This document shows positions 17,798 through 61,300 of a DNA stretch of 64,000 nt, in pieces. The translations under genes were made by a program, and so were the position numbers. The notes under the pieces are model-generated. The model worked only from the letters and a program-made list of their open reading frames with translations, was not told the origin of the DNA and made no database searches. Origin of the DNA: Embleya hyalina (lineage in GTDB: Bacteria > Actinomycetota > Actinomycetes > Streptomycetales > Streptomycetaceae); contig NZ_BIFH01000038.1 of NCBI RefSeq assembly GCF_003967355.1, positions 63,249 to 127,248 on the forward strand, written 5' to 3'. Numbering within the stretch: position 1 is the stretch's first letter; each line of letters starts with the position of its first letter.

Positions 17798-17804
17798 GGC
17801 GATC

Positions 17805-17849: not shown

Positions 17850-17965
17850 CGCCCGTGCCCACCGCGGTCGGCGGCCGGCCGCGCCGGCCGCGGTCCGGGT
17901 CGATCCGGGGGCACTTGGGCCCGGGCCCGTGTACAGGCTCGCCCGCCGCCTCGAAGTCGCCCGAT

Positions 17966-18775: not shown

Positions 18776-18887
18776 GGTGAGGTGGAAGGGCCGGTACAGC
18801 TGCGCACGACGTTCACGTTCGGTGGTGATGGGAACTCGCCCTCTCGGACACGGGTCGACCGGTGGACGACACGGGACGATGTCGGAG

Positions 18888-18906
18888 TTAGGTTAGCCTA
18901 ACCGGG
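18888..18906. promoter_or_regulatory. Iron box (DmdR/IdeR-type operator), strong match
   Basis: TTAGGTTAGCCTAACCGGG matches 16 of 19 positions of the actinomycete iron box TTAGGTTAGSCTAACCTAA as I recall it. It lies 59 bases upstream of the proposed ATC start of the siderophore-interacting gene. With sufficient iron, the Fe(II)-bound repressor would block that gene. Confidence 0.85.
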
Positions 18907-18981
18907 CCGGATTCACGATCACCCCCGACGCGCCGACACTGGGCCGAACGGGCTTGGCAAGGGCCGGATTTGGCCAGGAGG

Positions 18982-19000
18982 TATGGCTAGCCTAAGTTGG
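18982..19000. promoter_or_regulatory. Second, weaker iron box
   Basis: TATGGCTAGCCTAAGTTGG keeps about 12 of 19 positions of the same iron box, with the right half CTAGCCTAA best preserved. It lies about 125 bases before the ATP-grasp gene, so each arm of the divergent siderophore locus has its own candidate operator. Confidence 0.6.
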
Positions 19001-19124
19001 TCCGGGTCCCCGGCCGGTCGGGGTCGGGACGCCCGGCGGCGGGGTGTGTTCGCCGAGGGCGGGGCGTGCCCGGGCCCGGTGTCCGGATCGACGAGTCGAC
19101 GTGTCCGAGGGGGACCGATCACGC

Positions 19125-39202: not shown

Positions 39203-39394
39203 ATGGCGGTGGAGCGCGGTCGCGACGCGCGCCGGGAGGTGTTCCTGTGGGGGCCGCCGGGGGCGATCGCGGTGCTGATCGCGGTACTCGCGGCGTGCAG
39301 TCGGGAATGGCTGTTGTGCGCGCTGATGGCGGGGACCGCGGGTTGTGTCGCCTTCGGATTCCGGGTCCGGATCCGGCCCGGGCCGCACCGGTAG
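39203..39394 (+). CDS. Small two-helix membrane protein, unknown function
   Basis: 63 residues from ATG 39203 (GGAGAGGG upstream). A GTG at 39177 in the same frame is an alternative start. After MAVERGRDARREVF there are two hydrophobic stretches, GPPGAIAVLIAVLAACS and WLLCALMAGTAGCVAFGF, then a basic end VRIRPGPHR. It is short, so the call rests mainly on the membrane pattern and ribosome site. It converges on the MDR oxidoreductase gene. Confidence 0.4.
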   Translation: MAVERGRDARREVFLWGPPGAIAVLIAVLAACSREWLLCALMAGTAGCVAFGFRVRIRPGPHR

Positions 39395-39433
39395 TCCGAC
39401 GACGGCCCGGCGGCCCCGCCGCCCGGCTCGGGC

Positions 39434-40453
39434 TCAGTCGTCGATCGTGACGACGATCTTGCCCCGGGTGTGCTCCTCGCGGAGGGCGACGTATGCGCGT
39501 ACCCCGTCGGCCAGGGTGTATCGGGCGCCGATCGGATCGGGCAGGGTGCCGGCCAGGGCGTGGGCGGCCAGTGCGTCCAGATCGCCCGGGCGCGCCGCGC
39601 CGTAGACGGTCTCGACGGTGATGTCCCGATCCGCGAAGTCGGCGGGGTCGGGGGCCGGGAAGGCGATGTTGAGCAGTCGGCCGCCCGGGCGGATCAGCGC
39701 CGGGTGGCCGGTCAACGCGTCGCCGGGAAGGGCCAGGTTGACCACCCCGTGCAGGCTGGCGGGGTATCGGCGGGCGACGTCGGCGACGGTGTCCACCGCG
39801 TGGTGGTCGACGACCTCGCCGGCGCCCAGGCCCCGGACCCACCCCGCGTCGACGGCGCCGGCGGTGGCGATCACGTGTACGCCCGCCTCGGCGAGCAGTG
39901 GCAGCACCGCGCTGCCGACGCCGCCGGTCGCGCCGATCACCAGGACCCGGTCGCCGGCGCGGAACCGTCCCGCGCGCAGCACCGCGAGGGCGGTGAGGCC
40001 GACGATCGGCAGGGCCGCCGCGCGTTCGGCGGACAGCCCGGCGGGGCGGGGTGCCAGGGCCGGACTGTCCGCCTCGAACACCGCGTATTCGGCGGCCGTT
40101 CCGGTGGTCAGCGACGGCGGGTCGGCCAACATCGCGGCCATGCCGACCGCGGCGCGCGGCAGGGCGACCCCGAACACCTCGTCGCCCGGCGCGAATCGGG
40201 TCACCCCCGCCCCGACGTCGGTGACCGTGCCCGCGAAGTCGCTGCCCGGTACGTGCGGGAAGGCGAGCGGGACCAGATCGCCGAACGCGCCGCCGAGCGT
40301 GTTCAGATCGGCCGGGTTCAGCGCGGTCGCCGCGATCCGGACCCGGATCCGACCCGGTCCCGGCTCGGGGATCGGCACCTCGGCCAGGGTCAACCCGGTG
40401 GGCGGGCCGTACCCGTGCGCGACTATCGCCCGCATCGTCGCCTGCGTGGACAT
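39434..40453 (-). CDS. NADP-dependent MDR oxidoreductase (quinone reductase-like)
   Basis: 339 residues from ATG 40453. It is a zinc-free medium-chain dehydrogenase/reductase: ALNPADLNTLGGAFG and HVPGSDFAGTVTDVGAGVTR in the N-terminal lobe, then the nucleotide loop VLVIGATGGVGSAVLPL (A-x-x-G-x-x-G) and GRLLNIAFP. Such enzymes reduce quinones or enals with NADPH. It is divergent from a TetR gene and a perfect operator-like inverted repeat lies between them, so it is probably the repressor's target. Confidence 0.85.
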   Translation of the reverse strand: MSTQATMRAIVAHGYGPPTGLTLAEVPIPEPGPGRIRVRIAATALNPADLNTLGGAFGDLVPLAFPHVPGSDFAGTVTDVGAGVTRFAPGDEVFGVALPRAAVGMAAMLADPPSLTTGTAAEYAVFEADSPALAPRPAGLSAERAAALPIVGLTALAVLRAGRFRAGDRVLVIGATGGVGSAVLPLLAEAGVHVIATAGAVDAGWVRGLGAGEVVDHHAVDTVADVARRYPASLHGVVNLALPGDALTGHPALIRPGGRLLNIAFPAPDPADFADRDITVETVYGAARPGDLDALAAHALAGTLPDPIGARYTLADGVRAYVALREEHTRGKIVVTIDD

Positions 40454-40507
40454 CCATGCCTCCCGGAGGTCGCCGAACGCGGCCTCGCCAGAGAAGCGGA
40501 CCGCGCG

Positions 40508-40538
40508 GTCAGGTTATGACGGTAACACGTAACCTGAC
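40508..40538. promoter_or_regulatory. TetR-type operator, 9-bp perfect inverted repeat
   Basis: GTCAGGTTA (40508-40516) and TAACCTGAC (40530-40538) are perfect inverted copies separated by 13 bases. They are centred in the 138-base gap between the divergent oxidoreductase and TetR genes, the expected place for an autoregulated TetR operator. Confidence 0.75.
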
Positions 40539-40591
40539 CATGCGGTCCGGTTCGGCTAGACTGGCGCGAACCTCGGGAGAGTGGGCGACGA

Positions 40592-41311
40592 ATGGCGAGC
40601 ACGGCGGCGGGCGACGGATCCCGACCGGGAGTCGAGGGGCGGCGTCCGCACGACCCGCGCGTCGTCGGCGACGCCCCGGCCCGGCTGCGGGCGGACGCGG
40701 CGCACAACCGTCGCGCGCTCCTGGACGCGGCATCGGCCACCTTCGCGGAAGAGGGGATGGACGCGTCGATCGCCCGGATCGCGGCCCGCGCCGGGATCGG
40801 AAAGGGCACGGTCTTCCGACACTTCGCCACCAAACAGCACCTGGTGGTCGCGATCTTCTGCGACCGACTCGACCGACTGGCGGACCTGGGCGCGGAGTTG
40901 TCCACCGCGCCGGATCCGGCGGCGGCGCTGTCGGAGTTCATGACCGTCGGGGTCGAGCAGCAGGCGAGTGATCGTTCGTTCTGTCAGGCCGCGACGGGCG
41001 ACACCCGCAACGATCCGGCCGTGCGCGCCGCCTCGGTCCGGCTCGCCGAGGTGGCCGAGACCCTGACCGCGCGGGCGCGGGACGCGGGGAGCATCCGCGC
41101 CGACGTCACCGGGCAGGACGTGGTACTGCTGCTCGGCGCGGCCTGCCAGGCGGCCGCTCCGGTGGCCGCCACCGCACCGGAGTTGTGGCGTCGCTACCTC
41201 GCGCTGATCTTCGACGGGCTGCGCCCCCAGGCCGCCCACCCCCTGCCGCACCCGGCTCCGACGCGAACGCAACTGGCCGACGAGGCGGCCGCGGCCGGGT
41301 CGGCGGGGTAA
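40592..41311 (+). CDS. TetR-family transcriptional regulator
   Basis: 239 residues from ATG 40592. After a variable N-terminus the DNA-binding domain reads NRRALLDAASATFAEEGMDA then SIARIAARAGIGKGTVFRHF, the standard TetR helix-turn-helix. The ligand domain contains DRSFCQAATGDTRND and ends in a proline-rich tail. It is divergent from the MDR oxidoreductase and most likely represses that gene and itself through the repeat at 40508-40538. The inducer is unknown; an electrophile or quinone is plausible. Confidence 0.9.
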   Translation: MASTAAGDGSRPGVEGRRPHDPRVVGDAPARLRADAAHNRRALLDAASATFAEEGMDASIARIAARAGIGKGTVFRHFATKQHLVVAIFCDRLDRLADLGAELSTAPDPAAALSEFMTVGVEQQASDRSFCQAATGDTRNDPAVRAASVRLAEVAETLTARARDAGSIRADVTGQDVVLLLGAACQAAAPVAATAPELWRRYLALIFDGLRPQAAHPLPHPAPTRTQLADEAAAAGSAG

Positions 41312-46393: not shown

Positions 46394-47638
46394 TCACACA
46401 TGGCCGCGGGTGCGTAGCGCCGTGTGCATGCGGTTCAGGATCGTGTCCAGTACTCCCGCCGAGGTGGCGAAGTTCAGGCGGGCGAACCCATTTCCTTCCG
46501 GGCCGAAGGAGGGGCCGGAGAAGAGCAGCACCTTGGCGTGGTCGCGGAAGAAGACATATGGGTCGTCGCCCAGGCCCAGCGGGCGGCAGTCGAGCCAGGC
46601 CAGGAAGCCCGCCTCGGGGGAGTGGTGGCGGATGCCCTCGGGCAGTCCCGCGGCGAGGCGGCGGCGGTTGCGGTCGAGGAGGCCGCGGACCTCGTCCAGC
46701 CACGCGTCGCCATCCGCCCAGGCCGCGGCCAAGGCGGCCACGGCCAGCACGCCGACCTGGCCGAAGAGCAGCCCCCGCCGCGCGTCCACCGCGTCCCGCA
46801 GTTCCGGCGGGCCGATGTGCGCGGCGGCGCAGCGGATGCCCGCCAGGTTGAACGCCTTGCTCCCCGAGGTCACGGTGACCGTGCGCGCGGCGATCTCCGG
46901 CCCGAGGGACGCGAACGGGATGTGTACGTGCGGCGGGTGGGTCAGGTCCGCGTGCACCTCGTCGGAGATCACCAACAGATCGTGCCGCAGCGCGAGTTCG
47001 GCCAGTCCTTCGAGTTCGTCCCGGCGCAGTACCCGGCCCGTGGGGTTGTGCGGGTTGACCAGGAACAACACCCGGCAGCGGTCCGCCCGGTCGAGCGTCG
47101 CGGCCACCCGGTCCGGGTCGAGCGTCCAGCCGTGTGCGCCCTCCTCGATCGGCACGGTCAGCGGCGGTCGGTCGATCCGGCGCAGGTCGTCGACGAACGG
47201 CGGGCAGGCGGGCGTGTGCAGGACGACCGCGTCGCCGGGGCGGGTGGCCAGGTGCAGGATCGCCGACATCGCCTGGTTGACGTCGGTGAACAGGCGCAGG
47301 TGGGTCGGCTCGGCGGCGAAGCCGAACCGGCGCTTCATCCGGGCCGCGAACACCTCGCCCAGCGGCGCTCCTTCGGTCCCGTCGAACCACACCGGGTAGC
47401 CCAGGTCGCCGTCGATCCGCCGGATCAGCGCGGCGCGGATCCCGGGCGCGATCGGGAAGTCCATGTCGCCGATCCACGCGGACAGCGTGTCCTCGGGCGC
47501 GTAGGCCCACTTCTCGCCGTCGCGACGGGCCAGCGCGTCCGGGTCGAGCGCGTCGAAGACCGGGTGCCGGCGGGCGGGTTCGTGTCCGGCGGGGTCCGAG
47601 GGCTCGAAGTCGGCCGCCGGCGTGGTGTCCGCGCTCAT
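46394..47638 (-). CDS. MalY/PatB-type PLP enzyme (aminotransferase or C-S lyase)
   Basis: 414 residues, ATG 47638 overlapping the radical SAM stop by four bases. Fold type I PLP marks are WIGDMDFPIAPGIRAALIRR, the substrate/PLP stretch LFTDVNQAMSAILHLATRPG, LFLVNPHNPTGRV, LLVISDEVHADL and the PLP lysine in VTSGSKAFNLAG. The order and spacing fit MalY/PatB cystathionine beta-lyase-like proteins. It could supply an unusual amino acid or cleave a C-S bond. The direct coupling to the radical SAM gene suggests both act on the same precursor or tailoring step of the NRPS product. Confidence 0.85.
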   Translation of the reverse strand: MSADTTPAADFEPSDPAGHEPARRHPVFDALDPDALARRDGEKWAYAPEDTLSAWIGDMDFPIAPGIRAALIRRIDGDLGYPVWFDGTEGAPLGEVFAARMKRRFGFAAEPTHLRLFTDVNQAMSAILHLATRPGDAVVLHTPACPPFVDDLRRIDRPPLTVPIEEGAHGWTLDPDRVAATLDRADRCRVLFLVNPHNPTGRVLRRDELEGLAELALRHDLLVISDEVHADLTHPPHVHIPFASLGPEIAARTVTVTSGSKAFNLAGIRCAAAHIGPPELRDAVDARRGLLFGQVGVLAVAALAAAWADGDAWLDEVRGLLDRNRRRLAAGLPEGIRHHSPEAGFLAWLDCRPLGLGDDPYVFFRDHAKVLLFSGPSFGPEGNGFARLNFATSAGVLDTILNRMHTALRTRGHV

Positions 47639-49689
47639 CGGCCGGACTCCTCGGCGGCGGCCACGCCCGGCACGAAACCGGCCACGACCCGCGCGCCGCC
47701 GGGCCCACCGCCATCCGACTCCGCATCCTCCGCCTCGCCGTCGCCCTTCTCCGGCGCGATCCCGTCCCCCTCCCCCGGCAGCGGCGACGAGTCGTTGCGT
47801 ACCGCCCCCCAGCGGCGTTCCGTCTCGCGGTGGATGTGCCAGATGTCGTCCTCGGCCAGCACCACCGAGACCACGCCCGGGAACGCCTCCTCGAAGTAGG
47901 TGTAGGGCCGCCGGTTGTCCACCCGGGGCGAGTGGTAGTCGAGCCGATCGTGCATGCCGTGTACACGGGTGATCGGCGTGGCGGGGTGGTAGGTGAGGAT
48001 GTTCGGGCTGGCCAGGTCGATCAGGCGCGCGTCGATCAGGCCGCCCACCGCCTCGATCGTCTCGTCGATGCTGCCGCGCGTCTCGCCGTCGAGGCCGAAC
48101 AACACCGAGGTGCCCACCCGCATCCCGTGCCGCTTGACCAGCGAAACCGCCTCGCGCACCCGATGCGCCCAGGGCCGGTCGGCACCGCGCCGCAGATTCT
48201 TGTGGATGTGGTCCATCACCTGCGTCGACATGCTCTCGATGCCGACGTACACGTACGAGCAGCCGGCCTCACGCATCCGGTTCAGGATCTCGCCCGCCGC
48301 GTGCCGATCCCGCAGCGCGATCAGGGTGTCCACGGTGAGTTGGGCACCCCATTCGAGGTCCCGCAGCCGGGCCGGATCCTCCGGCTCCGGCAGCAGCCGG
48401 GCGAAGCGCCCGGGTAGCGCCGCCGGTTCGCTCCGACGCAAGTCGCGCAACCGCCCGCAGAACTCGGCGATGTCGTGCGAACGTCCGCTCCAGAACACCG
48501 AGTCGTCGAAGAACAGTGCCTCCGCGCCGTAACCGACGTATTCGCAGACCCGTTCCAGCGCCCGGCCGATCGGATCCTCCCGGAACCGCTTGAGACCGAT
48601 GCCGAGCGCGGACGACTCCGAGCAGAAATTGCAGTGGTAGGGACAGGCGTTGGAGACCATCACGTGTGCCGTGCGTCGCACGCCGCCGTCGGCGTGGGTG
48701 AAGATCGGGAAGCGCGAGCGGATCGCGAACGCCTCGTACGGAGAGGGCAACGAGCCCAGATCGAGCGTGGATCCGTCCTGCGGCAGCACGTCGAACCCGG
48801 CCGCGGACAGCAGCACGATCATCGAACTGCCCACCGACGGACCCTCTTTGTCGAGCAGCCCCTGGAGGCAGGGCAACACCCGATCGCGGTCGACCCAGCG
48901 CCGGTCCAGGTCGGTGGCCAGCGCCAGGGCACGCATCAGCAGGTCGAGCGAGTGGTACGCCTCACCGGTGATCACCGCGTCGAACACCCGGGGCGCGCGC
49001 CCGTCGGCGATCACGGTCGGCGGACTGCTGGGGGCGAGTACCAGGCGCTCCTGATGCGGCACCCGGATCACCGTCTCGTCCGCGTGGCGTCCACCGAGCA
49101 CCACGAAGGCGTCCGGGACCTCGGTGCGGACCAGGCCGGCGATCTCCAGGGCGTATCGGTGCGCCGGGGAGACCGCGCTGATCAACACGACCCGGGGCCG
49201 CACCCGGCGGAGCAGCCGGATCCAGCGCACGCGGGCCGTCTCGTCCCAGATCCGGGGGTCGAAGACGGTCTGGTCGGTGTTCGGATCGGTGCCGTAGTCG
49301 CGGTAGCCGTCGTGGCCGGCCGTCATCCGGTAGGCGTGGTCGGGGAAACGGGTCCACTCGGGCGCCAGGTCGTTGTAATGTTCGGCGCATCGGAGCTGCC
49401 CCGCGTCGGCGACGGCGCGGTGCATGGCCAGGCTGAGCGCGGCGTACAGGCACATCGGGTCGCCGGGGTAGGTGATCTCACCCTCGGCCTGGGTCATCAC
49501 GGGCGCCAGGACGGAGAGCACCGGGAAGTATCGGGTCGCCGTGCGGCCGGCGGCCAGGTCCGTCGCGAGGCGGCGCCTGCGCGTACTCAGGAGTTCCTGG
49601 AAGATCGCCGGCGCGGCGTCGCCGCCCGCGTCGTGAAATCTGATGTCCGCGCCGGCCGAGGTCGGTTCTTCGTCGACGGAATTGGTCAT
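47635..49689 (-). CDS. B12-binding-type radical SAM enzyme
   Basis: 684 residues from ATG 49689 (GGAGGG before it). The N-terminal third looks like a cobalamin-binding Rossmann domain: PRVVLISAVSPAHRYALEIA then VPDAFVVLGGRHADETV, though the D-x-H-x-x-G motif is absent. The radical SAM cluster motif is VSNACPYHCNFCSE with C349, C353 and C356, followed by EALFFDDSVFWSG and YVYVGIESMSTQVMDHIHKN. Such enzymes methylate unactivated carbons or rearrange precursors in antibiotic pathways. It is divergent from the NRPS genes and shares their duplicated control sequence. A 41-residue leader ORF ends inside its start codon. The last 55 residues are acidic/glycine-rich and variable. Confidence 0.85.
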   Translation of the reverse strand: MTNSVDEEPTSAGADIRFHDAGGDAAPAIFQELLSTRRRRLATDLAAGRTATRYFPVLSVLAPVMTQAEGEITYPGDPMCLYAALSLAMHRAVADAGQLRCAEHYNDLAPEWTRFPDHAYRMTAGHDGYRDYGTDPNTDQTVFDPRIWDETARVRWIRLLRRVRPRVVLISAVSPAHRYALEIAGLVRTEVPDAFVVLGGRHADETVIRVPHQERLVLAPSSPPTVIADGRAPRVFDAVITGEAYHSLDLLMRALALATDLDRRWVDRDRVLPCLQGLLDKEGPSVGSSMIVLLSAAGFDVLPQDGSTLDLGSLPSPYEAFAIRSRFPIFTHADGGVRRTAHVMVSNACPYHCNFCSESSALGIGLKRFREDPIGRALERVCEYVGYGAEALFFDDSVFWSGRSHDIAEFCGRLRDLRRSEPAALPGRFARLLPEPEDPARLRDLEWGAQLTVDTLIALRDRHAAGEILNRMREAGCSYVYVGIESMSTQVMDHIHKNLRRGADRPWAHRVREAVSLVKRHGMRVGTSVLFGLDGETRGSIDETIEAVGGLIDARLIDLASPNILTYHPATPITRVHGMHDRLDYHSPRVDNRRPYTYFEEAFPGVVSVVLAEDDIWHIHRETERRWGAVRNDSSPLPGEGDGIAPEKGDGEAEDAESDGGGPGGARVVAGFVPGVAAAEESGR

Positions 49690-49811
49690 CGGCCCTCCAG
49701 GTCGGTCCCGACGTGCCACCAGGCCGCCGACGGCCGAAATCCCGCGCGTGGGCCGCAGAACGATCCCCCATGACGCCGCACGTGCCGTCGCACGGGCATG
49801 GCGTCCACCAT
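49686..49811 (-). CDS. Leader ORF overlapping the radical SAM start
   Basis: 41 codons from ATG 49811 (a second ATG at 49799), stop TGA at 49688-49686, which overlaps the radical SAM start as ATGA. The predicted peptide begins MVDAMPVRRHVRRHGGSF, rich in Arg and His. Its first codons lie in the segment that is duplicated in front of the NRPS gene. No strong ribosome site is seen, so translation is a hypothesis. If translated, it would couple to the radical SAM gene. Confidence 0.4.
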   Translation of the reverse strand: MVDAMPVRRHVRRHGGSFCGPRAGFRPSAAWWHVGTDLEGR

Positions 49812-50026
49812 CGGCGAGGCCCCAGGGGGACGAAAGTGTTGCCCTGTTGCCCAAACGAGGAAACAGCGCCGTCCCGGGAGGCGCGTCGAGCGGGCCCGTG
49901 GCAGGTCGAAAGCCCTCGTGAGAGCCGTGATTCGGCGTGCCGTCGCACGTGGGGAGGTGTTTCCTGGAACGGGCAACAGGGCAACACTTTCGCCCTCCCG
50001 GCCGCCGGTCGATGGTGGTCCGCATG
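49797..50026. repeat. Inverted duplication of the divergent promoter region
   Basis: The two arms are 49797-49865 (read leftward) and 49958-50026 (read rightward). Aligned without gaps over 69 bases, I count 53 matches. They include TGTTTCCT, an identical 22-base block (49831-49852 against 49971-49992) containing GGGCAACAGGGCAACA, and an identical CGATGGTGG at the leader start codon. In each arm the block reads toward its own gene. Inside it, the 8-base word GGGCAACA is directly repeated. Confidence 0.9.
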
Positions 50027-50056
50027 CGTCATCGCCGGTGCGGGCCGGACGGGTGA
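50012..50056 (+). CDS. Leader ORF before the NRPS gene
   Basis: 14 codons from ATG 50012 to TGA 50054-50056, predicted MVVRMRHRRCGPDG. The start context CGATGGTGG is identical to that of the leader before the radical SAM gene, and this peptide too is rich in Arg/His with a Cys. It ends about 110 bases before the NRPS start. A short peptide by itself proves little. The support is the mirrored position in both arms. Confidence 0.35.
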   Translation: MVVRMRHRRCGPDG

Positions 50057-50165
50057 CCAGCCCCCGGAACCCATCCAACCCCCTGAATCCACCGAGCACA
50101 CACGCATTCGCAAGTCGGCCCCGGGCACCCCGTCCCGGGCCCGGATCGGCGATGGGAGAACTGCG

Positions 50166-53100
50166 TTGTCGCACGCCTCGCGGGAACCGGACGATCACGC
50201 GTCGCGGGAACCGGACGACCTGGTGGGGGTGTTCGCGGCGCGCGTCGCCGAACACCCGGACGCGACCGCGATCACCTGCGCGGAGCGGGCGGTCGACTAC
50301 CGCGAACTCGACGAATCCTCGGAGGCGGTACGCCGGTTCCTGGAGGCTCGCGGCGCGGACACCCATCTGGTCGACGACTGCGAGGTGTGCGGGCCGGAAC
50401 TCGCCGACGAGGCGCCGGTCGGCGTGTTCATGGACCGGGGCGTCGACGTCGTCGTCGCGATGGTCGGCGCGGTCAAGGCGGGACGCCCCTATGTACCGCT
50501 GGACATCCGGTCGCCCGCGGCCCGGTCGCGGTTGATCCTGGACGAGTGCGGCATCGGCCTGGTTCTGGTGGACACGGCCGAACGGGCGGCTCGGGTACGC
50601 GAGTTCTGCGCCGAATGGGTCGACGTGGTGTGCTTCGCGGACGCGGTGGCGTCGCCGGGGCTCGTGGCGAGCGGACCCGTCGCGCCGCCCGGACCCGTGG
50701 CGGGGACGCCCCCGCGTCCTCGTTCGCCGCGTCGGCTCGCGTACGTGATCCACACCTCCGGCTCCACCGGCGTGCCCAAGGGCGTCGAGGTCGAGCACCG
50801 CGACCTGGTCGCCTTCGCCGCCGATCCGTGCTGGTCGGACGGCCTGGATCGGCGGGTGCTCCAGTATTCGCCGCTGGCGTTCGACGCGTCGGTGTTCGAG
50901 ATCTGGATGCCGCTGCTGCGCGGCGGCCGGGTGGTGGTGGCCCCGCCCGGCGAGGTGGACGCGGGCGTGGTCGCGCGCCTGATCAAGGAGGAGGGCGTCA
51001 CCTGCGCGTTCGTCACGACCTCCCTGTTCAACGTGATGGTCGAGCAGGATCCGGCGGTCTTCGCGGGCATCGGCCAGGTATGGATGGGCGGCGAGGCGGC
51101 CTCCCCGCTCGCCGTCTCGCGCGCGTTGCGGGCGGGCGGCGCCGGCACCGTGGTCAACGTCTACGGGCCCACCGAGGGCACCATCTTCGCCGCGTTCCAC
51201 GTGCCGACCGAGCCGGTGGGCGCCCCCGTGCCGATCGGCTCGGCGATGGCGGGGGTGCGCACCTACGTCCTGGACGAGCGGCTGGACCCGGTCGAGACCG
51301 GCGCCGACGGCGAGCTGTGCCTGGGCGGGCGGGGTGTCGCACGGGGCTACCGGGGCCGCCCCGGGAGCACCGCCGACCGATTCGTCCCCGACCCGTTCGC
51401 CGGCGGCGGCGCGCGGATGTACCGCACCGGCGACATCGTGCGCCGGCGGCCGGACGGCCTGCTCGAATTCGTCGGCCGCCGAGACCGCCAGGTCAAGGTA
51501 CGCGGCTTCCGCGTCGAACTCGGCGAGATCGAGAGCCGCCTCGTCCTGCGCCCCGACGTCGCGGGCGCCGCCGTGCTGGCCGTGCCGGACGCACACGGCG
51601 ACAAGACGATCGTCGCCTACCTCGTCCCGCGCCGGGACACCCCGATCGGCGACGCGAACCCCCGGGCCGACGACATGGGTTGGGGTCGGTGGGTATTGGC
51701 CGAGTTGGCCGGCACGCTGCCCGCCTACATGGTGCCGACCGACTGCGTGGTTCTGGACGCGCTGCCGCTGACGCCCAACGGGAAGGTGGACTCGGCCGCG
51801 CTGCCCGCACCGACGCACGCCGTCGACGGCCGCGCGCCGCGTTCGGCCGTCGAGGAGCTGCTGTGCGAGGTGTTCGCCGATCTGCTCGGCCTCGACCGGG
51901 TCGGCATCGACGACAACTTCATCGAACTCGGCGGCCACTCGCTGCTCGCCACTCGCGCGGTCGCCCGGATCGCCGCCGCCGGAGCCGGACTGCTGCGGGT
52001 GGTCGACGTGTTCGAGGCGCCGACCCCGGCCGCACTCGCGCTCCGCCTGGACGCGGCGGCCCGGGCCCGGACCGACGAACGCCCGCCACCGACCCCCCGA
52101 CCACGCCCCGACGTCATCCCGCCGTCCTTCGCCCAGCGGCGATTGTGGCTGGTCAATCGCCTGGAGGGCGGCGCCGACCCGGGCTACCACATCCCGCTGC
52201 TGTTCCGCCTGCACACCGAGCCCGACCTCGAAGCCCTGCGGGCCGCGCTGCGCGATGTGATCGAACGCCACGAGAGTCTGCGCACGGTCTTCCCCGTGCA
52301 CGACGACATGCCGCGCCAACACATCCTGGACATCGACGAGTTCGGGGTACGGATCCCCGTCACCGAGTGTGCGGCCGACGCGCTGGACGCGGAGATCACC
52401 CGCGCCGCCCGGGTCCCGTTCGACCTGACCACCCGGCTCCCGATCCGGGCCGAGCTGATCCGAACCCCGCACGAGAGCCTGCTGCTCGTGGTGGTCCACC
52501 ACATCAGCGCCGACGGCTGGTCGCTCACCACACTCACCGGCGACCTCGGCCGGGCCTACGCCGCCCGAATGCGCGGCACCCGACCCGACGTCGCGCCGCT
52601 GCCGCTGCAATACCGCGACTACGCCGCGTGGCAGCGCGAACAACTGGGCGACGAGAACGACCCGAACAGCCCGCTGGGCAGGCAATTGGTCTACTGGACA
52701 CGGCGGTTGGCCGATGCACCCGCCGCACTGACGCTGCCCACCGATCGTCCGCGCCCGATCGTGGCCGGCCACGCGGGCGACGTACACGCCTTCGAACTGC
52801 CCGCCGACCTGTGCACGGCCCTGGACGCCCTGGCCCGATCCGCGCACACCACGCTGTTCGTCGCGCTGCACGCCGGCCTGGCCGGCCTGCTCACCCGACT
52901 CGGCGCGGGCGAGGACATCGTGGTGGGCAGCCCCATCGCGGGCCGCGCCGACGCCGTCCTCGACGACCTGATCGGGTTCTTCGTCAACACCGTGGTGCTG
53001 CGCACGGACACCTCCGGCGACCCCACCTTCGCCGAACTCCTCGCCAGGGTGGACCGCTCCTGGCTGCCCGCCTACGCCAACCAGGACGTCCCGTTCGACC

Positions 53101-56100
53101 TGCTCGTGGAAAGACTGAACCCGGTCCGCAGCCTGTCCCGACACCCGATCTTCCAGATCTCGCTCGGCCTGCTGAACACCCCCGACGCGATCACCGGACT
53201 GCCCGGACTGGCCGACCCGTGGACACTGGCCAACACCCGATCCGCCAGGTTCGACCTCGCGTTCCACCTCTTCCCGCACCGCACCGAGACGGGCCGCCCG
53301 GGCCGGATCGACGCCACCGTGGAGTACGCCACCGACCTGTTCGACCGGGACACCGTCCGGCGCATGGCCGACCGACTGGTCCGCCTCCTGCGCGAGGCCG
53401 TCGCCCACCCGCACCGCCCGCTCGGCGCGCTCACCATCCTCGACGACGCCGAACTCGCGACCCTGCGCCCGATCGAGCCGGCCGCCCACCCGGAACACGA
53501 CACCCTGAACGCCGCCTTCCACGCCCGAGTCGCCGCACACCCCGAGGCACCGGCCGTCGGCGAAGGCGAAAACGTGCTCACCTACCGGGAACTGGCCCGG
53601 CGCGCCCGAGCGCTCGCGGACGGGCTGACCGACGTCGACGCACCCGTCGCCCTGCTCCTGGAACCCGGCGTCGACGCGGTCACCGCGACCGTCGGCGTGA
53701 TCGAGGCCGGCGGGACCTATGTACCGCTCGACCCGGCCCTGCCCGACCGGCGTCTGGCCACGATCCTCGCCGACAGCGGTGCCGGCACCGTACTGGTCGA
53801 CCACCCCGAGCGGGCGGAGCGGGTCCGCGGCCTGGTCGGCCCCGCGACGCGCGTCCTGCGGGTGGCCGACACGATCCGCGCCGGGGCGGCGGCACCCATC
53901 GCGTCGGCGCCCGTCGAGAGCGACCCCGACCGCATCGCCCGCGTCACCTATACGAGCGACCCCGCCGGCGCCCTCGTCGGCGTGTGCACGAGCCACCGCG
54001 ACCTGCTCACCGCCCCGGACCACCCGGGCGAGCCGATCCTGCGCTCCTCCGGACCCGGCCACGAGCCCGGGCCCCGCGCGCCGTGGGCCCGGCTGGTGGG
54101 TGGTGTCGCCGTGGACGCCGTGAGTGAACCGGATGCCCAGGCCCCACCGACGGCCGGCGGCGCCCGCGCCCGGCTCGTGGACGAGACCGGCACCCTCGTC
54201 GGCATCGGCATGATCGGCGAACTGTGCCTGGCCGAGCCCGGGATCGCGTCCGGCTACCTGGGCCGACCCGCGCTCACCGCCGAGCGCTTCGTGCCCGACC
54301 CGTACGGCCCACCCGGATCGCGGATGTACCGCACCGGCGACCTGTTCCACCGCCGAGCCGACGGCGCCGCGAACCACGTCGGCCGCCGCGACCGGCAACT
54401 GCGCCTGGGCGGACGGCGGATCGAACCGGCCGAGATCGAGGCGGCGCTCACCGAACACCCGGACGTGGCCGAGGCCGTGGTGGTGCTCCGCGACGACGAA
54501 CACCTCGGCGAGATCCTGGTGGGCTACCCGGTGCCGGCCCCCGGCCACCCGGATCCCGTCGACCGACTCCCCGCGTTCCTGGCCGAACGACTGCCCGCGC
54601 ACCTGGTGCCGACCGCCCTGATCCCGCTGCCCGCGCTCCCGCGTACCCCGGCCGGTACCGTCGACGAGGCGGCGCTGCCCGCCCTCGACCTCGCCGGCCC
54701 CTCCCGGCCGCCGCGCACCGCCGAGGAACGGGCACTGTGCGCGCTGTACGCCCGCATCCTCGATCTGCCCGAAGTACGCCTCGACGACGGCTTCTTCGAA
54801 CTCGGCGGGAACTCGCTGGCGGCGATCCGCCTCGTCGGCCGGCTGCGCGCGGACCACACGATCGAGGTGCCGGTCAAGAACGTCTTCCGCCACCCGACGC
54901 CCGCCGCGTTCCTGGCCGGCATGCCCACCGAGGCGCGGCTTCGACTCACCGCGTCCGATCACGACCGCGGCCGGGACCCCGACGAGCACACCATCCCGCG
55001 CACCACCACGCCCGACGACCTCGTGCCGCTGTCCTTCGCCCAGCGTCGATTGTGGTTCCTCGACCAACTGCGGCCGAACCGAGCGGACTACAACCTCCCC
55101 GTCGCGCTGCGTCTGACCGGCCCGTTGGACCCGGATCGGGTGCGTAACGCGCTCACCGGGCTGATCGCCCGACACGACATCCTCCGTACCCGCTATGTGC
55201 TCCGCGACGACGAGGCACGTCAACTCGTCGAACCGGCCGTACCGATCGTGCCGCGCGAGCTCGACCTGCGCGCGTTGCCGATCGACGAGGCGGCGCGCGC
55301 CGCCGACGCGGCGATCGCCGACGACCTCGGCCGCCCGTTCGATCTCGCCGCCGCACCTCCGGTGCGCACACTGCTGGTTCGATTGGCCGACGACGACCAC
55401 ATCCTCCTCCTGGTCGTACACCACATCGCCACCGACGGCTGGTCCAGCGAGGTGTTGTGCCGCGAATTGGCCGAGCGATACCGACTGGGCGCACGGTACG
55501 CACCGGATCCGCCCGCGCTGCGCTACGCCGACTACGCGGCCTGGGAGAGCGGTCCGGCGGCGGACCGGGTCCGGCGGGCACAGGCCGACTATTGGCGCAC
55601 CCACCTGGCCGGACCGACCTCGGTGGAACTGCCGGGCGATCACCCGCGCCCGCCGGTCATGTCCGGTCGGGGCGAGCAGTTCGACTTCGAGATCCCCGCC
55701 GACCTGCGCCGCCGACTCCTCGACCTGAGTCGGACACACGAGAGCACGCCTTTCATCACCCTGCTCACCGCCTTCCAGGTGCTCGTCGCACGGCGCACCG
55801 GGGCCCGCGACATCGCCGTCGGCACCCCCGTCGCCGGTCGCGGGCGTCCCGAACTCGACGGACTGATCGGCCTGTTCGTCAACACCCTGGTCCTGCGCGT
55901 CGATCTCGATCCCGCACTGGGCTTCGCGGACCTTCTCGCCCGCACCCGCGCGCACGCGGCCGCCGCCTACTCGCACCAGGACCTGCCGTTCGAGCAACTC
56001 GTCGACGAACTGCGGCCGGAGCGCGACCTCGGCCGCAACCCGCTGTTCCAACTGATGTTCTCGATGGCGGACGTCAACCCCGCCCCCGCCGACTGGGGGG

Positions 56101-58307
56101 AACCCGCGGTCGCGCCGCACCCGGTGCCGTTCCGCGCCGCCAAACTCGACCTGGAGATCGCCGTCGCCGAGCGAGGGGACACGTATCTGGGCAGCGTCTA
56201 CTACGCCACCGACCTGTTCGCCCCCGCCACGATCGAACGGCTGGCCCGAGACTATGTCCAGCTCCTCGCGGCGCTGGTCGAGCGACCGGACGCACCGGTG
56301 GGCGGACTCGGCCACGAAGCCCGCCTCGGGGCGCCCGACGCCCTCGGGTCCGCGCCCGACCGGACCGAGGCCCTCGCGTCCCCCACGACCGGCGATGCCC
56401 GGCATGGGGCCGCGGACGACTCCGGGGCCGGCGCCGAGCCGTACGCCCGATGGAACGACACCGCCGTCGACCACGACCTCGACCACGGCCTGCACGAACT
56501 GTTCGCCCGGCAAGCCCGCCGCACCCCGCACACCGCGGCCGTGATCGCCGGACGGGAGACCCTCGACTACGCCGAACTCGACCGCCGCGCGAACCGCTTC
56601 GCGCACCGACTCGTGGCACACGGGGTCCGCTCCGGCCTCCCGGTCGGCCTGCGCCTGGACCGGGGCCCGGACCTGGCCGTCGCGCTGCTCGGGATCCTCA
56701 AGGCCGGCGGCGCCTACCTCCCGCTCGACCCCGACCTGCCCCCGGCCCGGGTCCGACAACTCCTCGACGAGGCGGGCACGGACATCTGCGTCGTCGACGC
56801 CTCGGCGGGCGACGCGTCGCCGGCCGACGCCGGGATCCGCACCATCACGGTCGACTCGGGCGCACCAACCGACGCCCGGTCGGACACCCCGCCCGACGTC
56901 CCGGTCGACCCCGACGACCTGGTCTCGATCCACTACACCTCGGGCTCGACCGGTCGGCCCAAGGGTGTGGCGAACCCGCACCGGGGCTGGGTCAATCGTA
57001 TGTGGTGGATGCATCGCCGACACGGTCTGGCCGTGGGTGACCGGGTGTTGCACAAGACCGTGCTCAGCTTCGACGACTCCGCGGTGGAGCTGTTCTGGCC
57101 GTGGCTGGTCGGCGGCACCGTCGTGATGCTCGAACCCGGCCTGCACCGCGACCCGCGGGCGATCCTGCGCGCGGCCGTCGAACACGAGGTCGCCGTGCTC
57201 CAGTTCGTGCCCAGCATGCTCGGCCTGTTCCTCGACGAACTCGACGCCGTCGGGCCCACGGGACTCGACCGGTTGCGGGTGGTGGTCTCCAGCGGCGAGG
57301 CGCTGCGCCCGGACCTGGTGGCCCGCTTCCGCGCGCATCTGGACGCGCGGGGCGCCCGGTTGCACAACCAGTGGGGGCCGACCGAGGCGTCCATCGACGC
57401 CACCCACCACGTCTGCGGCCCCGAGGACGCGGAGGCGGACACGGTCCCGATCGGCCTGCCCCTGGACAACTACCGGGTGCACGTCCTGGACGCCGACCTG
57501 CGGCCGGTCCCGGTCGGCGTCGAGGGTGAACTGCACGTCGGTGGACCCGGGTTGGCACGCGGCTACTGGAACGATCCGTCGCGCACCGCCGAGGCGTTCG
57601 TGCCCGATCCGGACGTCCCGGGGGAGCGGCTGTACCGGACCGGTGACCGCGCGATCCGTCGCCCGGACGGCGAACTGCTCTTCCTGGGCCGGGTCGACCA
57701 CCAGGTGAAGATTCGCGGCATCCGGGTCGAACTCGGCGAGATCGAGGCCATGTTGGTGGCGCACCCGGACATCGCCGACGCCGTGGTCACCAAATGGGAG
57801 CCCACCCCCGGCGACCACCGTCTGCTCGCCCACCTCGTCGCCGCCGCCGGCACCCGCCTCGAACCCGAACACGTGCGCGCCTACCTGGGCGAGCGGCTGC
57901 CGCCGTATCTGGTGCCCACCCGGCTGACCCTGCTCGACGCACTGCCGCTGAGTCCGAACGGCAAGGTGGACCGCGGAAGACTGCCCGCACCGGAACGAGA
58001 CGCCGAACCGGCCCCGATGCCCGGCCCGATCCGCGCCCCCGAGACCGACGCGGAAGTCCTGGTCGCCCAGGTCTGGGCGCAGTTCCTGGCCGCCGACGAC
58101 GCCGACGCCGACTTCTTCGCCCTGGGCGGACATTCGCTCCTGGCCACCCGGATCGTCTCCCGACTGCGCCGCGCCCTGGACGTGGAACTGCCACTGATGC
58201 TGCTCTTCGAGCATCCGACGATCGCCGGGCTCGCCGCCGCCGTCGAGGCCGAACTGCTCGACGAAGCGACCGACGACGACACGTGCGCCGGGGACTGCGA
58301 TGACTGA
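50166..58307 (+). CDS. Nonribosomal peptide synthetase, A-T-C-(A degenerate)-T-C-A-T
   Basis: 2713 residues from TTG 50166 (GGGAGAA seven bases before); no ATG fits, GTG 50223 is an alternative. Domain order by approximate residue: A1 20-545 (HTSGSTGVPKG, NVYGPTEG, NGKVDS), carrier T1 with Ser near 593, C1 655-1080 (HHISADG), A2 1110-1500, T2 with Ser near 1550 (LGGNSL), C2 1630-2070 (HHIATDG), A3 2120-2605 (YTSGSTGRPKG, NQWGPTE, NGKVDR), T3 with Ser near 2658 (LGGHSL). A2 lacks about 100 residues between A3 and A6 core motifs. The loop is YTSDPAG and the A10 lysine is Thr1498 (AGTVDE), so it should be inactive. My reading of the A1 pocket is D-A-F-F-W-G-V-I-F, closest to Ile/Val-type codes; A3 is D-D-V-Q-V-S-Q-I-D, which I cannot assign. 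It starts directly with A, so this is probably the first protein of the assembly line. Confidence 0.9.
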   Translation: MSHASREPDDHASREPDDLVGVFAARVAEHPDATAITCAERAVDYRELDESSEAVRRFLEARGADTHLVDDCEVCGPELADEAPVGVFMDRGVDVVVAMVGAVKAGRPYVPLDIRSPAARSRLILDECGIGLVLVDTAERAARVREFCAEWVDVVCFADAVASPGLVASGPVAPPGPVAGTPPRPRSPRRLAYVIHTSGSTGVPKGVEVEHRDLVAFAADPCWSDGLDRRVLQYSPLAFDASVFEIWMPLLRGGRVVVAPPGEVDAGVVARLIKEEGVTCAFVTTSLFNVMVEQDPAVFAGIGQVWMGGEAASPLAVSRALRAGGAGTVVNVYGPTEGTIFAAFHVPTEPVGAPVPIGSAMAGVRTYVLDERLDPVETGADGELCLGGRGVARGYRGRPGSTADRFVPDPFAGGGARMYRTGDIVRRRPDGLLEFVGRRDRQVKVRGFRVELGEIESRLVLRPDVAGAAVLAVPDAHGDKTIVAYLVPRRDTPIGDANPRADDMGWGRWVLAELAGTLPAYMVPTDCVVLDALPLTPNGKVDSAALPAPTHAVDGRAPRSAVEELLCEVFADLLGLDRVGIDDNFIELGGHSLLATRAVARIAAAGAGLLRVVDVFEAPTPAALALRLDAAARARTDERPPPTPRPRPDVIPPSFAQRRLWLVNRLEGGADPGYHIPLLFRLHTEPDLEALRAALRDVIERHESLRTVFPVHDDMPRQHILDIDEFGVRIPVTECAADALDAEITRAARVPFDLTTRLPIRAELIRTPHESLLLVVVHHISADGWSLTTLTGDLGRAYAARMRGTRPDVAPLPLQYRDYAAWQREQLGDENDPNSPLGRQLVYWTRRLADAPAALTLPTDRPRPIVAGHAGDVHAFELPADLCTALDALARSAHTTLFVALHAGLAGLLTRLGAGEDIVVGSPIAGRADAVLDDLIGFFVNTVVLRTDTSGDPTFAELLARVDRSWLPAYANQDVPFDLLVERLNPVRSLSRHPIFQISLGLLNTPDAITGLPGLADPWTLANTRSARFDLAFHLFPHRTETGRPGRIDATVEYATDLFDRDTVRRMADRLVRLLREAVAHPHRPLGALTILDDAELATLRPIEPAAHPEHDTLNAAFHARVAAHPEAPAVGEGENVLTYRELARRARALADGLTDVDAPVALLLEPGVDAVTATVGVIEAGGTYVPLDPALPDRRLATILADSGAGTVLVDHPERAERVRGLVGPATRVLRVADTIRAGAAAPIASAPVESDPDRIARVTYTSDPAGALVGVCTSHRDLLTAPDHPGEPILRSSGPGHEPGPRAPWARLVGGVAVDAVSEPDAQAPPTAGGARARLVDETGTLVGIGMIGELCLAEPGIASGYLGRPALTAERFVPDPYGPPGSRMYRTGDLFHRRADGAANHVGRRDRQLRLGGRRIEPAEIEAALTEHPDVAEAVVVLRDDEHLGEILVGYPVPAPGHPDPVDRLPAFLAERLPAHLVPTALIPLPALPRTPAGTVDEAALPALDLAGPSRPPRTAEERALCALYARILDLPEVRLDDGFFELGGNSLAAIRLVGRLRADHTIEVPVKNVFRHPTPAAFLAGMPTEARLRLTASDHDRGRDPDEHTIPRTTTPDDLVPLSFAQRRLWFLDQLRPNRADYNLPVALRLTGPLDPDRVRNALTGLIARHDILRTRYVLRDDEARQLVEPAVPIVPRELDLRALPIDEAARAADAAIADDLGRPFDLAAAPPVRTLLVRLADDDHILLLVVHHIATDGWSSEVLCRELAERYRLGARYAPDPPALRYADYAAWESGPAADRVRRAQADYWRTHLAGPTSVELPGDHPRPPVMSGRGEQFDFEIPADLRRRLLDLSRTHESTPFITLLTAFQVLVARRTGARDIAVGTPVAGRGRPELDGLIGLFVNTLVLRVDLDPALGFADLLARTRAHAAAAYSHQDLPFEQLVDELRPERDLGRNPLFQLMFSMADVNPAPADWGEPAVAPHPVPFRAAKLDLEIAVAERGDTYLGSVYYATDLFAPATIERLARDYVQLLAALVERPDAPVGGLGHEARLGAPDALGSAPDRTEALASPTTGDARHGAADDSGAGAEPYARWNDTAVDHDLDHGLHELFARQARRTPHTAAVIAGRETLDYAELDRRANRFAHRLVAHGVRSGLPVGLRLDRGPDLAVALLGILKAGGAYLPLDPDLPPARVRQLLDEAGTDICVVDASAGDASPADAGIRTITVDSGAPTDARSDTPPDVPVDPDDLVSIHYTSGSTGRPKGVANPHRGWVNRMWWMHRRHGLAVGDRVLHKTVLSFDDSAVELFWPWLVGGTVVMLEPGLHRDPRAILRAAVEHEVAVLQFVPSMLGLFLDELDAVGPTGLDRLRVVVSSGEALRPDLVARFRAHLDARGARLHNQWGPTEASIDATHHVCGPEDAEADTVPIGLPLDNYRVHVLDADLRPVPVGVEGELHVGGPGLARGYWNDPSRTAEAFVPDPDVPGERLYRTGDRAIRRPDGELLFLGRVDHQVKIRGIRVELGEIEAMLVAHPDIADAVVTKWEPTPGDHRLLAHLVAAAGTRLEPEHVRAYLGERLPPYLVPTRLTLLDALPLSPNGKVDRGRLPAPERDAEPAPMPGPIRAPETDAEVLVAQVWAQFLAADDADADFFALGGHSLLATRIVSRLRRALDVELPLMLLFEHPTIAGLAAAVEAELLDEATDDDTCAGDCDD

Positions 58308-61300
58308 GCGCACCGGCGCGGGTGACCCGCGCCTGGCGGAACGACTGCGGGAGGCCCGGGCGCGGCTGGCCGACCCGGGTCCCGACTCCCCGGACGCGCA
58401 CGCGGGATCGTTGCCCCGGCGCCCGGCCGACGCCCCGATCGTGGCCTCGTTCGAGCAGGAACGGGTCTGGTTGGTCGATCGCATCCTGGGCCGGGCCCCG
58501 GAGTACAACGTGCCGCAATGCATGTGGTTCCGGGACGAATTCGACCCCGACGCGTTCGGTCGGGCGCTCACCGCGCTGGTCGCCCGGCACGAGGTGTTGC
58601 GGACCGTGTTCACCGAGGTCGACGGCCTGCCCCGGCCCGTGCTCCGTCCCGAGGGCCCGGTGACGATCGAGACGGTCGACGGCACCGAACTCGGCGATCC
58701 GGCCGACCCCGACGCCCTGCGCCGCCTCGCCCGAAGGGTCGCCGACCTCGCCGACCGCCCGTTCGACCTGGCCGGCGAAATCCCGCTGCGTGCGGCGGCG
58801 GTGCGCTGCGTCGACGGCTCCGCGCTGGTGCTGCTGACGGTGCACCACATCGCCACCGACGGAACGGCCATGGCCCGGACCTGGGACGAACTCGCCAGCG
58901 GGTACGCCGCCGCCCGCGCCCGCCGGCCGCTGCCCGCGGACCCGCCGGCCCGGCAATACGCCGACTTCGCCGCCTGGCAGCGCGCCCACGCCGCCGAGAC
59001 CGAGGCCGCCGACCTGCGCTACTGGGCCGACCGGCTGACCGGACTGCCCGAACTCACGCTGCCCACCGACCATCCCCGACCCGCCGCGAGTGAGCGCGCC
59101 GGCGCGGAGGTGCGCTTCACCCTGCCCGCCGCGACCGCGGCCCGCGTGCGCGCGTTGTCCGTACGGTACGGCGCGACGCCGTTCATGACCCTGCTCGCCG
59201 GTTTCAAGGCGCAACTCGCCCTGCTCGGCGGGCAGACCGACATCGCGGTCGGCACCCCGGTCGCCGGGCGGGACCGCCCCGAACTCGAAACCATGCTCGG
59301 TACGTTCGTGAACACCGTGGTGCTGCGTACCGAACTGGCCGACTCGCCGAGCTTCGTCGACCTGATCGGCCGGGTGCGCGAGAGCGCGCTCGGCGCGTAC
59401 GCCCATCAGGGCCTGCCGTTCGCGCACCTGGTCGAACACCTCCACCCCCGTCGCGACCTGAGTCGAAACCCGCTGTTCCAGGTGTTGTTCGCACACCGGC
59501 ACGAGCCGGCGCCGGGGGCGGGGACACGGTCCGAACCGCGCCTTCGTCCCGTACCGCTGCCCGTCACCACCTCGAAGTTCGACCTCGCGCTCACCCTGAC
59601 CGAAGCCGGCCCCGAAGCGCCGATCACCGGATCGATCGTCTTCGACCCCGACCTCTTCGAGTCCGCGACCATCCATCGCCTGGCCGCCGGATACGTCCGC
59701 CTCCTGCACGCGGCCACCGCCTACCCGGACCTGCCTCCCGACCGGCTTCCGCTCGCCGACCCGGCCGAAGCGGCCACCCTCGTACACGACTGGGGACGCG
59801 GCGAGTTCCGCGCGCCGAACGGCGCCACGCTGCCCGAACTGATCGCCGCGCAGGCCGTACGCACCCCCGAGGCGATCGCGCTCGGCTGCGGCGAGCGCAC
59901 GGTGACCTACGCCGAGCTGATCGAGCGAGCCGACCGCCTGGCCGCCCGGCTCGCTGCCCTGGGCCTGCCGGCCGAGGGCGTGGTCGCGGTCTGTCTGGAC
60001 CGCTCCGTGGACCTGGTGATCGCGCTGCTCGGAGTGCTGCGCGCGGGCGGAGGCTACCTGCCGATCGACCCGAGCCACGCCACGGCCCGAATCGGCGCCC
60101 TCCTCGCGGACAGCGAGACCCGGCTGGTACTCACCCACGCCGCGACCGCGCGGACCATGCCCTGGGCCGACCTCGGTGTGCCGGTGCTCGACCTCGACAC
60201 CGTCGCCGACCACGCGCCGGGCCCGCGACCGCCCGCCGCCGCACCCGACCCGGACCAGGTGGCCTACCTGATCCACACCTCCGGTTCCACCGGCCGGCCC
60301 AAAGGCGTCATGGTCACCCACGGGGGCGTGGCCAACCTCGCCCGGGACATGATCGAACGTCTGGCCCTGGACGGGTCGTCCGTGGTGGGCGCGCTGACCA
60401 CCGTCTCGTTCGACATCGCGGTGCTGGAACTGCTCGTCCCGCTCGCGGCCGGCGCCCGGGTCCAGGTGCTCCCGCAGGCGGCGCTCGCGGACGGCGGCCG
60501 GCTCGGCGCCGCGCTGACCGACGCCGGCGCCACCGTGGTCCAGGCCACCCCCGCCGGCTGGGCGATGCTGCTGGACGCGGGCTGGCCGGGCGGCGAGATC
60601 CGGGCGCTGTGCGGCGGCGAGGCACTGCCGGGACCGCTCGCCGAGCGCATCCGTGCGCGGGTGGCGCGCCTGTGGAACGTGTACGGCCCGACCGAAACCA
60701 CCATCTGGTCCGCCGCACACCTCGTGGAGCACACCCCCGCCCCGCCCGGGCCGGATACCCCCGACCCCGCCGCCCCGCCGCTCGGCCGCCCGCTCCTGAA
60801 CACCTCGCTGTACGTCCTCGACAACCGCCTCGCCGCCGTGCCCATCGGCGTGGTCGGCGAGCTGTACATCGGCGGGCTCGGCCTGGCGCGCGGCTACGCC
60901 GCCGACCCCGGCCGGACCGCCGAACGCCTGCTGCCCGACCCGTTCGCGGCGGGCGCCGGCCGCGCCGGGGCGCGGATGTACCGCACCGGCGACCTGGTCC
61001 GCTACCGCCCGGACGGCCGGCTGGACTTCCTCGGCCGAGCCGACCAGCAGATCAAGATCCGGGGCCATCGCATCGAGCCCGGCGAGATCGAGGCCCGCCT
61101 GCTGGCCCACCCCGACATCGCCCGGGCCGCGGTGCGGGTGCACGGCGAGGGGCTGGACCGGGTGCTCGTCGGCTACCTGGTGCGCCGCGCCGGCCACGAC
61201 GACCGGGACCCCGGCGTGCTCGCCCGGGAGTGGCTGCGGGGGAGCCTGCCGGAATACCTGGTGCCGCCGCTGATCGTCGAACTCGACGCGCTGCCGCTGA

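Follow-up and report, generated by a model that had tools for sequence, protein, structure and literature searches.

In Embleya hyalina, the control region between the two divergent arms of a nonribosomal peptide synthetase (NRPS) cluster carries two inverted copies of one conserved sequence with promoter-like geometry, and among the clusters compared this motif is paired with a gene for an XRE/NB-ARC regulator. The region is probably a duplicated, divergent, activator-dependent promoter bound by that regulator, binding and activation being what we infer from the sequence comparisons described here.

Architecture of the inverted control region

Positions are those of the window, the whole stretch of 64,000 nucleotides that was analysed. 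The first-pass annotation had described the promoter-leader segments of the radical SAM gene and of the NRPS gene as inverted copies with 53 identities over 69 ungapped bases. This alignment was reproduced and can be lengthened to arms 49796-49870 and 49953-50027, identical at 57 of 75 positions, and the perfect 22-base block reported within it was also recovered, 49831-49852 on the minus strand being the same as 49971-49992 on the plus strand. None of 200 dinucleotide shuffles of the 476-nt intergenic region yielded an ungapped inverted segment scoring above 21, whereas the best one in the natural sequence scores 39. The genome-wide search that had been recommended with that description found no place beyond the two arms: with up to three mismatches, both the 22-mer and a 29-nt pattern occur in just these two places of the 12.05-Mb genome, the motif is present in 2 of 394 family genomes, both of which carry this cluster, and no further copies were found in 98 kb of the cluster region. 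A looser dyad, TGTTNCC-N7-GGNAACA, also has two exact places in the genome, which are the two arms. With one mismatch it has 16 more (reversed control, 2), which might serve the same regulator, or a related one, as weaker sites.

Read toward its gene, the unit of each arm is TGTTTCCT-N5-GGGCAACA-GGGCAACA-CTTTCG. Because TGTTKCC and GGCAACA are near reverse complements, the unit contains three half-sites, an inward-facing pair TGTTKCC...GGCAACA and a tandem third GGCAACA. Operator A (49831-49865, minus strand; TGTTTCCT-CGTTT-GGGCAACA-GGGCAACA-CTTTCG) ends in the presumed -35 of the radical SAM promoter, and operator B (49958-49992, plus strand; TGTTTCCT-GGAAC-GGGCAACA-GGGCAACA-CTTTCG) reads toward the NRPS gene. 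Downstream of the operator both arms continue as TTTCG(N)-N17-GATGGT-N7-ATG. The presumed -10 GATGGT of promoter A lies at 49807-49812 (minus strand), 17 nt after the hexamer TTTCGT, and that of promoter B at 50011-50016 (plus strand), 17 nt after TTTCGC. From its sequence each arm looks like a promoter unit made of three half-sites, a weak -35 (TTTCG), a 17-bp gap and GATGGT as -10. Many activator-dependent promoters have this arrangement, in which the operator stops at a poor -35.

The same regulator could occupy the same operators as a repressor lifted by an intermediate or product of the cluster. XRE-type regulators are often repressors, and some homologues of the regulator have half-sites upstream of their own gene, as an autorepressor would. 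The operator, however, stops where the -35 begins and does not cover the stretch from -35 to -10, and judged by consensus the promoters are weak (a sigma-70 scan of the region gave 0 matches), as expected if they depend on an activator. A repressor is on these grounds an unlikely reading.

The equal distance from block to leader ATG, noted by the first-pass annotation, holds in both arms (49799 and 50024), but these ATGs are probably not the starts of the genes. By eye, the radical SAM gene probably starts at 49689 (an ATG after GGAGGG, 142 nt from the block) and the NRPS gene at 50166 (a TTG after GGGAG, 174 nt from the block). A nearly palindromic direct repeat of 14 bases, CGTGCCGTCGCACG, occurs at 49781-49794 in leader A and at 49936-49949 upstream of operator B.

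Conservation in a congener

A second genome of the genus (G002) has the same cluster, syntenic with gaps and running the other way on its contig, and its two motif copies keep the 121-bp spacing. The sole difference between the operators of E. hyalina (G000) and those of G002 is the first N5 base of each. The spacer between the operators (49866-49957) drifts at the neutral rate: 88 of 104 positions (49860-49963) are identical, close to the 85.7% identity of four-fold sites in the radical SAM and NRPS 1 genes (338/392 and 1446/1690, respectively). The retention of both blocks beside a neutrally drifting spacer supports the functional constraint that had been suggested from the E. hyalina sequence.

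The arms, alike at 57 of 75 positions, do resemble a duplicated promoter, and the inverted copy might have arisen recently or neutrally by duplication, or be a site of recombination, without any function. This is hardly credible given that the blocks are kept while the spacer drifts, that the spacer has the same orientation in both genomes, with no sign of inversion, and that a similar motif is found in a different family (in Saccharomonospora halophila, see below) without duplication. The first N5 base (49857 and 49966) is C/G in the arms of G000 and G/C in those of G002, a swapped pair of changes; inversion of the spacer as its cause was rejected because the spacer orientation is unchanged. 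Nor was an invertible promoter, with the spacer in both orientations, found in these two genomes. Two other genomes of the genus have no radical SAM match at E 1e-100 and no motif.

Leaders of the two transcripts

Both leaders are more conserved than neutral sites. The constrained leader of the radical SAM transcript (49690-49799, minus strand) has a short ORF from the ATG at 49799, and in the comparison with G002 128 of 135 alignment columns agree (49690-49823, P 6e-4). The leader of the NRPS transcript (50024-50165, plus strand), with a short ORF from the ATG at 50024, is strongly constrained (163 of 167 columns, 50000-50165, P 2e-7). In both arms the short ORF (49799-49690 and 50024-50056) begins exactly 7 nt after the presumed -10. 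The ORFs are Arg/His-rich with one Cys each, the peptides being MPVRRHVRRHGGSFCGPRAGFRPSAA... in leader A and MRHRRCGPDG in leader B. As judged by eye, MRHRRCGPDG is unchanged in G002, and the MPVRRHVRRHGGSFCGPRAGFRPSAA... ORF has two synonymous changes there, then a stop. At the equivalent place in S. halophila the ATG is absent. Transcription as a rule starts some 6-8 nt after a -10; placed accordingly, the presumed transcript starts coincide with the short-ORF ATGs in both arms, and a leaderless leader peptide is possible from this arrangement.

The first-pass annotation had considered a leader RNA structure as well as a binding site, and with such short ORFs and conservation beyond neutral in both leaders, the conserved thing might be an RNA element such as an attenuator or a riboswitch. 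Leader structure found no support: shuffled sequences fold just as well as the leaders (z 0.11 and 0.39), an Rfam scan of them returned no family at gathering score (three weak sub-threshold hits were taken as chance), and a terminator scan gave no terminator-like site. Moreover, transcription would presumably start downstream of the inverted blocks, and on visual inspection the first N5 bases of the arms would mismatch in a hairpin in both genomes. We consider a leader RNA element very improbable.

The gene cluster and its probable pathway

On the minus strand, a gene for a B12-binding radical SAM enzyme of 684 aa (47635-49689), probably the SAM C-methyltransferase of methyl-ACC synthesis, is adjacent to that of its probable partner, a PLP enzyme of class I/II aminotransferase fold (46394-47638). 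On the plus strand follow NRPS 1 (50166-58307), with three adenylation, two condensation and three carrier domains, and NRPS 2 (58300-64000), which continues past the window to about 65670 and has a C-terminal thioesterase. A 191-aa ORF at 58518 was dropped as another frame of NRPS 2. Next come an Asp/Glu racemase domain, two Asp/Asn-hydroxylase-like proteins and an Ldh_2 protein; further on lie a PALP enzyme, a thioesterase and an SDR, and a third large NRPS-like ORF, recognized by similarity alone, at 74002-79107. Inside the cluster, the stretch equivalent to window positions 69480-71825 (L037:11480-13825) is about 93% conserved in G002; two ORFs tested in it gave no Pfam match, and its codon bias shows no clear frame. 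The otherwise syntenic G002 lacks, at the corresponding place, an island that spans about 39383-41299 here and includes a TetR-type regulator.

The B12-binding radical SAM gene thus stands beside a PLP-enzyme gene and NRPS genes, its B12-binding Pfam match being below the gathering score. In the sections of PMC7277169 consulted, the pairs Orf29/Orf30 and Swb7/Swb6 are described as making methyl-ACC (norcoronamic acid) for NRPS products, and their clusters likewise have adjacent B12 radical SAM and PLP genes near NRPS genes; those sections contain no discussion of how methyl-ACC clusters are regulated. The present enzyme pair is probably one for methyl-ACC synthesis, as assigned from domain content and gene order rather than from alignment.

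Occurrence of the motif outside the genus

Loci of radical SAM relatives were scanned for the motif. At E 1e-200 the radical SAM protein is matched in its own genome alone among the 394 family genomes, and at E 1e-100 in 11 of the 394 and in 6 of 249 genomes of a second set. Eight genomes were examined beyond the immediate locus (G000, G002, G096, G414, G332, G331, G974 and G763); the more distant relatives of the 394-genome set (47-54%) were scanned in loci of 4-5 kb alone, and four genomes of the second set (G822, G883, G905 and G916) were left out of the scan. It covered 28 loci, overlapping places included, with L017-L034 (18 of 30, 20-26% identity) set aside. Six of the 28, with 0 mismatches, are the two clusters of the genus itself, and in 21 the best match has 8 mismatches or more. 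Upstream of the orthologous radical SAM gene of Saccharomonospora halophila (G763), a copy of the motif was found with 6 mismatches in 24.

The S. halophila site reads TGTTGAGT-N5-GCGCAACA-CGGAAACA-CTTTCC, and TAAGGT stands 17 bases after the hexamer TTTCCC. Of its first 35 bases, 25 match operator B; shuffling the upstream region 300 times gave no more than 22 matches, and 11 other loci gave no more than 21. With up to two mismatches, GMAACANGGMAACACTTTC has a single match in the 3.7-Mb S. halophila genome (reversed control, 0 there and 1 in G002), and for GMAACAN{1,2}GGMAACACNTT this genome provides the sole match among 123 of its family (reversed control, 1). Four other radical SAM upstream regions have no inverted repeats like these arms.

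Half-sites were also looked for around homologues of the regulator. They occur in 4 of 14 homologue neighbourhoods of 16-20 kb each (L091, L092, L094 and L095, one orthologous group), in the form TGTTGCC-N-TGGCAAC-GGGCAACACC or a single-base variant of it, and precede the conserved start of the regulator by 55-95 nt; the other 10 homologues have none in the 300 nt inspected. In all, six homologue genes, all of the one orthologous group, are closely preceded by related half-sites. Their promoter is directed away from the regulator gene, in two cases toward an acetyltransferase-like ORF (by eye), and the sites may control either the regulator or the neighbouring gene.

The pattern GGCAACN{1,2}GGCAACACNTT, fitted to the sites of the cluster and of the orthologous group, has 12 matches in 8 of 180 family genomes (reversed control, 0). 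Four lie in the G000 and G002 clusters, two are inside predicted ORFs of G002:C1, and four (G080, G107, G176 and G163) are just upstream of regulator genes whose products all conserve the helix-turn-helix. The G107 and G176 genes are outside the set of 14 homologues, and the G176 regulator has HTH_31, NB-ARC and TPR by Pfam. Since the pattern was drawn after the orthologous group had been seen, its four regulator-upstream matches, two of which were known beforehand, are no independent test. The matches in G036 and G097 are new. That of G097 is placed between the divergent genes of another NRPS cluster, with an XRE/NB-ARC homologue 10 kb away (L125, about 17300-19150) whose reading frame is broken in this 76%-complete assembly. 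That of G036 is 315 nt upstream of a LuxR-type gene; the 55 kb examined there contain no homologue, and one is encoded on another contig of the same genome.

In all 13 units collected from these sources, a NANNNT hexamer follows 17 or 18 nt after a TTT or TTG hexamer abutting the last half-site, against a mean frequency of 2% for NANNNT elsewhere in the same 70-nt stretches. These units represent 11 distinct sequences, of which four come from the close pair G000/G002, while seven of the remainder include six from the one orthologous group. Counted by lineage there are about five: this genus, S. halophila, the orthologous group, G036 and G097. The units of G131 and G180, with one changed base, were taken from homologue neighbourhoods and are outside the matches of the fitted pattern. 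Operator, -35 and -10 thus keep a constant spacing in 13 of 13 units, although the position of the hexamer and both spacing limits were chosen after the sequences had been seen. Even at about five lineages, chance is a poor explanation of it. The period of the half-sites is 8 in the E. hyalina cluster and in S. halophila, and 7 in the others.

Pairing of the motif with an XRE/NB-ARC regulator

The candidate regulator, a protein of 448 aa with HTH_31 and NB-ARC domains, is encoded at C38:142385-143731 (equivalent to window positions 79137-80483), about 15 kb beyond the window. Its gene and the third NRPS-like ORF meet tail to tail, and the radical SAM gene is about 29 kb away. The G002 protein is 96.6% identical. 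In S. halophila the gene immediately upstream of the motif promoter encodes an HTH_31 plus NB-ARC protein of 454 aa, and the two regulators share 46% identity over 427 aa. Among solved chains, the NB-ARC part is nearest to AfsR (8k60 and 8jke; phmmer, residues 60-431, E 1e-68) and the helix-turn-helix to ClgR (E 2e-5); AfsR being an activator, the former likeness argues further against repression. Pfam assigns the protein HTH_31, HTH_3 and NB-ARC/AAA families alone, without a SARP head (Trans_reg_C plus BTAD) and without TPR, and NF053617 gives a partial match below its cut-off. No such site precedes the regulator gene itself, either in the 300 nt upstream of it in G000 and G002 or in S. halophila.

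Motif and regulator are both present in three clusters (G000, G002 and S. halophila). In contrast, five related clusters (G096, G414, G332, G331 and G974), searched for about 50 kb on each side of the radical SAM gene, yielded neither the motif nor an HTH-bearing homologue of the XRE/NB-ARC regulator. The search had at first covered about 29 kb either side, and it was widened because this distance would barely take in a regulator at the position that it has in the E. hyalina cluster. G974 has two NB-ARC-only matches at a distance of 42-46 kb. The gene-by-gene comparison covered two of the five, G974 and G096. G974 (Actinokineospora enzanensis) has nearly the whole biosynthetic cluster, and S. 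halophila only part of it. In G974 the radical SAM and NRPS genes are on one strand, with the PLP-enzyme gene divergent; its promoter layout differs, and its pathway is probably the same as that of the window. Since G974, with its nearly complete pathway genes, shows neither the motif nor an HTH-bearing regulator in the 50 kb or so searched on either side, the motif would follow the regulator and not the pathway. The pairing, 3 of 3 against 0 of 5, is suggestive in a small sample in which two of the three positive clusters are close kin (G000/G002).

These data bear on two expectations of the first-pass annotation. Its proposal of a binding site for a cluster-specific regulator gains support from the co-occurrence with one regulator family, as read from the genomes. 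It had also held that a regulatory role would be unlikely if related clusters kept the genes and not the motif. Taken literally, this is the situation in the five clusters, but no HTH-bearing regulator was found there either within about 50 kb.

The operators could instead serve another, unlinked protein, for instance a LuxR-type, TetR-type or global regulator, the pairing with the XRE/NB-ARC gene being a coincidence. The motif of G036 would fit this reading, since it precedes a LuxR-type gene and the 55 kb examined there contain no XRE/NB-ARC gene. Yet motif and regulator are present or absent together over eight clusters, and half-sites stand directly upstream of orthologous XRE/NB-ARC genes in several species, which makes an unlinked protein rather improbable. 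The XRE/NB-ARC protein is the likely regulator because the same motif occurs beside this type of regulator gene in other bacteria.

A model for coordinated activation and its relation to AfsR

We propose that the divergent control region consists of two inverted copies of one promoter unit, and that the regulator of about 450 aa with HTH_31 and an AfsR-like NB-ARC part, encoded at the far end of the cluster, binds the three half-sites of both operators. It would recruit RNA polymerase to both weak promoters at once, so that precursor synthesis (radical SAM and PLP enzymes) and the NRPS genes would be switched on together. A nucleotide or signal presumably controls the NB-ARC part, and long operons would run in both directions.

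The closest known system may be AfsR. The portions of PMC10936776 consulted describe AfsR as a large SARP activator at the afs box, studied by cryo-EM, which acts at a poor -35 by engaging sigma region 4, and give as the SARP rule direct repeats at 11 or 22 bp with the 3' repeat 8 bp from the -10. The present system resembles it in the NB-ARC/NOD domain of large SARPs, in repeats at a poor -35 and in a secondary-metabolism target. The cluster regulator differs in having an XRE helix-turn-helix in place of the SARP head, and in the TPR, which was not found in it. Compared with the afs box as presented in those portions of PMC10936776, the repeats here have a period of 8 (7 in others) and not 11, the last half-site is 24 bp from the presumed -10, and the repeats end at the -35, whereas the afs repeats overlap the -35/-10 spacer. 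The NB-ARC part also matches HaaT-type and FxSxx-type TPR proteins (NF041717 and NF040586), far below their curated cut-offs, and in contrast to these proteins the cluster regulator is without TPR.

Searches of PubMed Central full texts with six spellings returned no mention of the motif, and the titles and abstract openings retrieved from it describe no XRE/NB-ARC cluster activator with an operator; most subscription journals are outside the scope of both searches. In the consulted part of PMC12224297, XRE and NB-ARC are mentioned only separately.

Tentatively, and with more doubt than for the regulation of this one cluster, XRE-headed AfsR-like NB-ARC proteins might form a separate family of metabolic activators, with the operator code GTGTTGCC...GGCAAC-n-GGCAACAC abutting a TTG or TTT -35 that is 17-18 bp from the -10, and with the XRE head doing the work of the SARP head. 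Here the duplicated unit would be a single bidirectional switch, both transcripts starting at the ATG of a short leaderless ORF. If this is true, a regulator group with none described in the literature searched would have a readable operator, and its mechanism could be compared with the solved AfsR complex. A protein similar to the regulator at E 1e-40 is found in 199 of 200 sampled family genomes, many of the matches covering the NB-ARC part only. Once the operator is known, sequence searches could reveal silent clusters that such regulators govern, and expression of a single gene could activate them.
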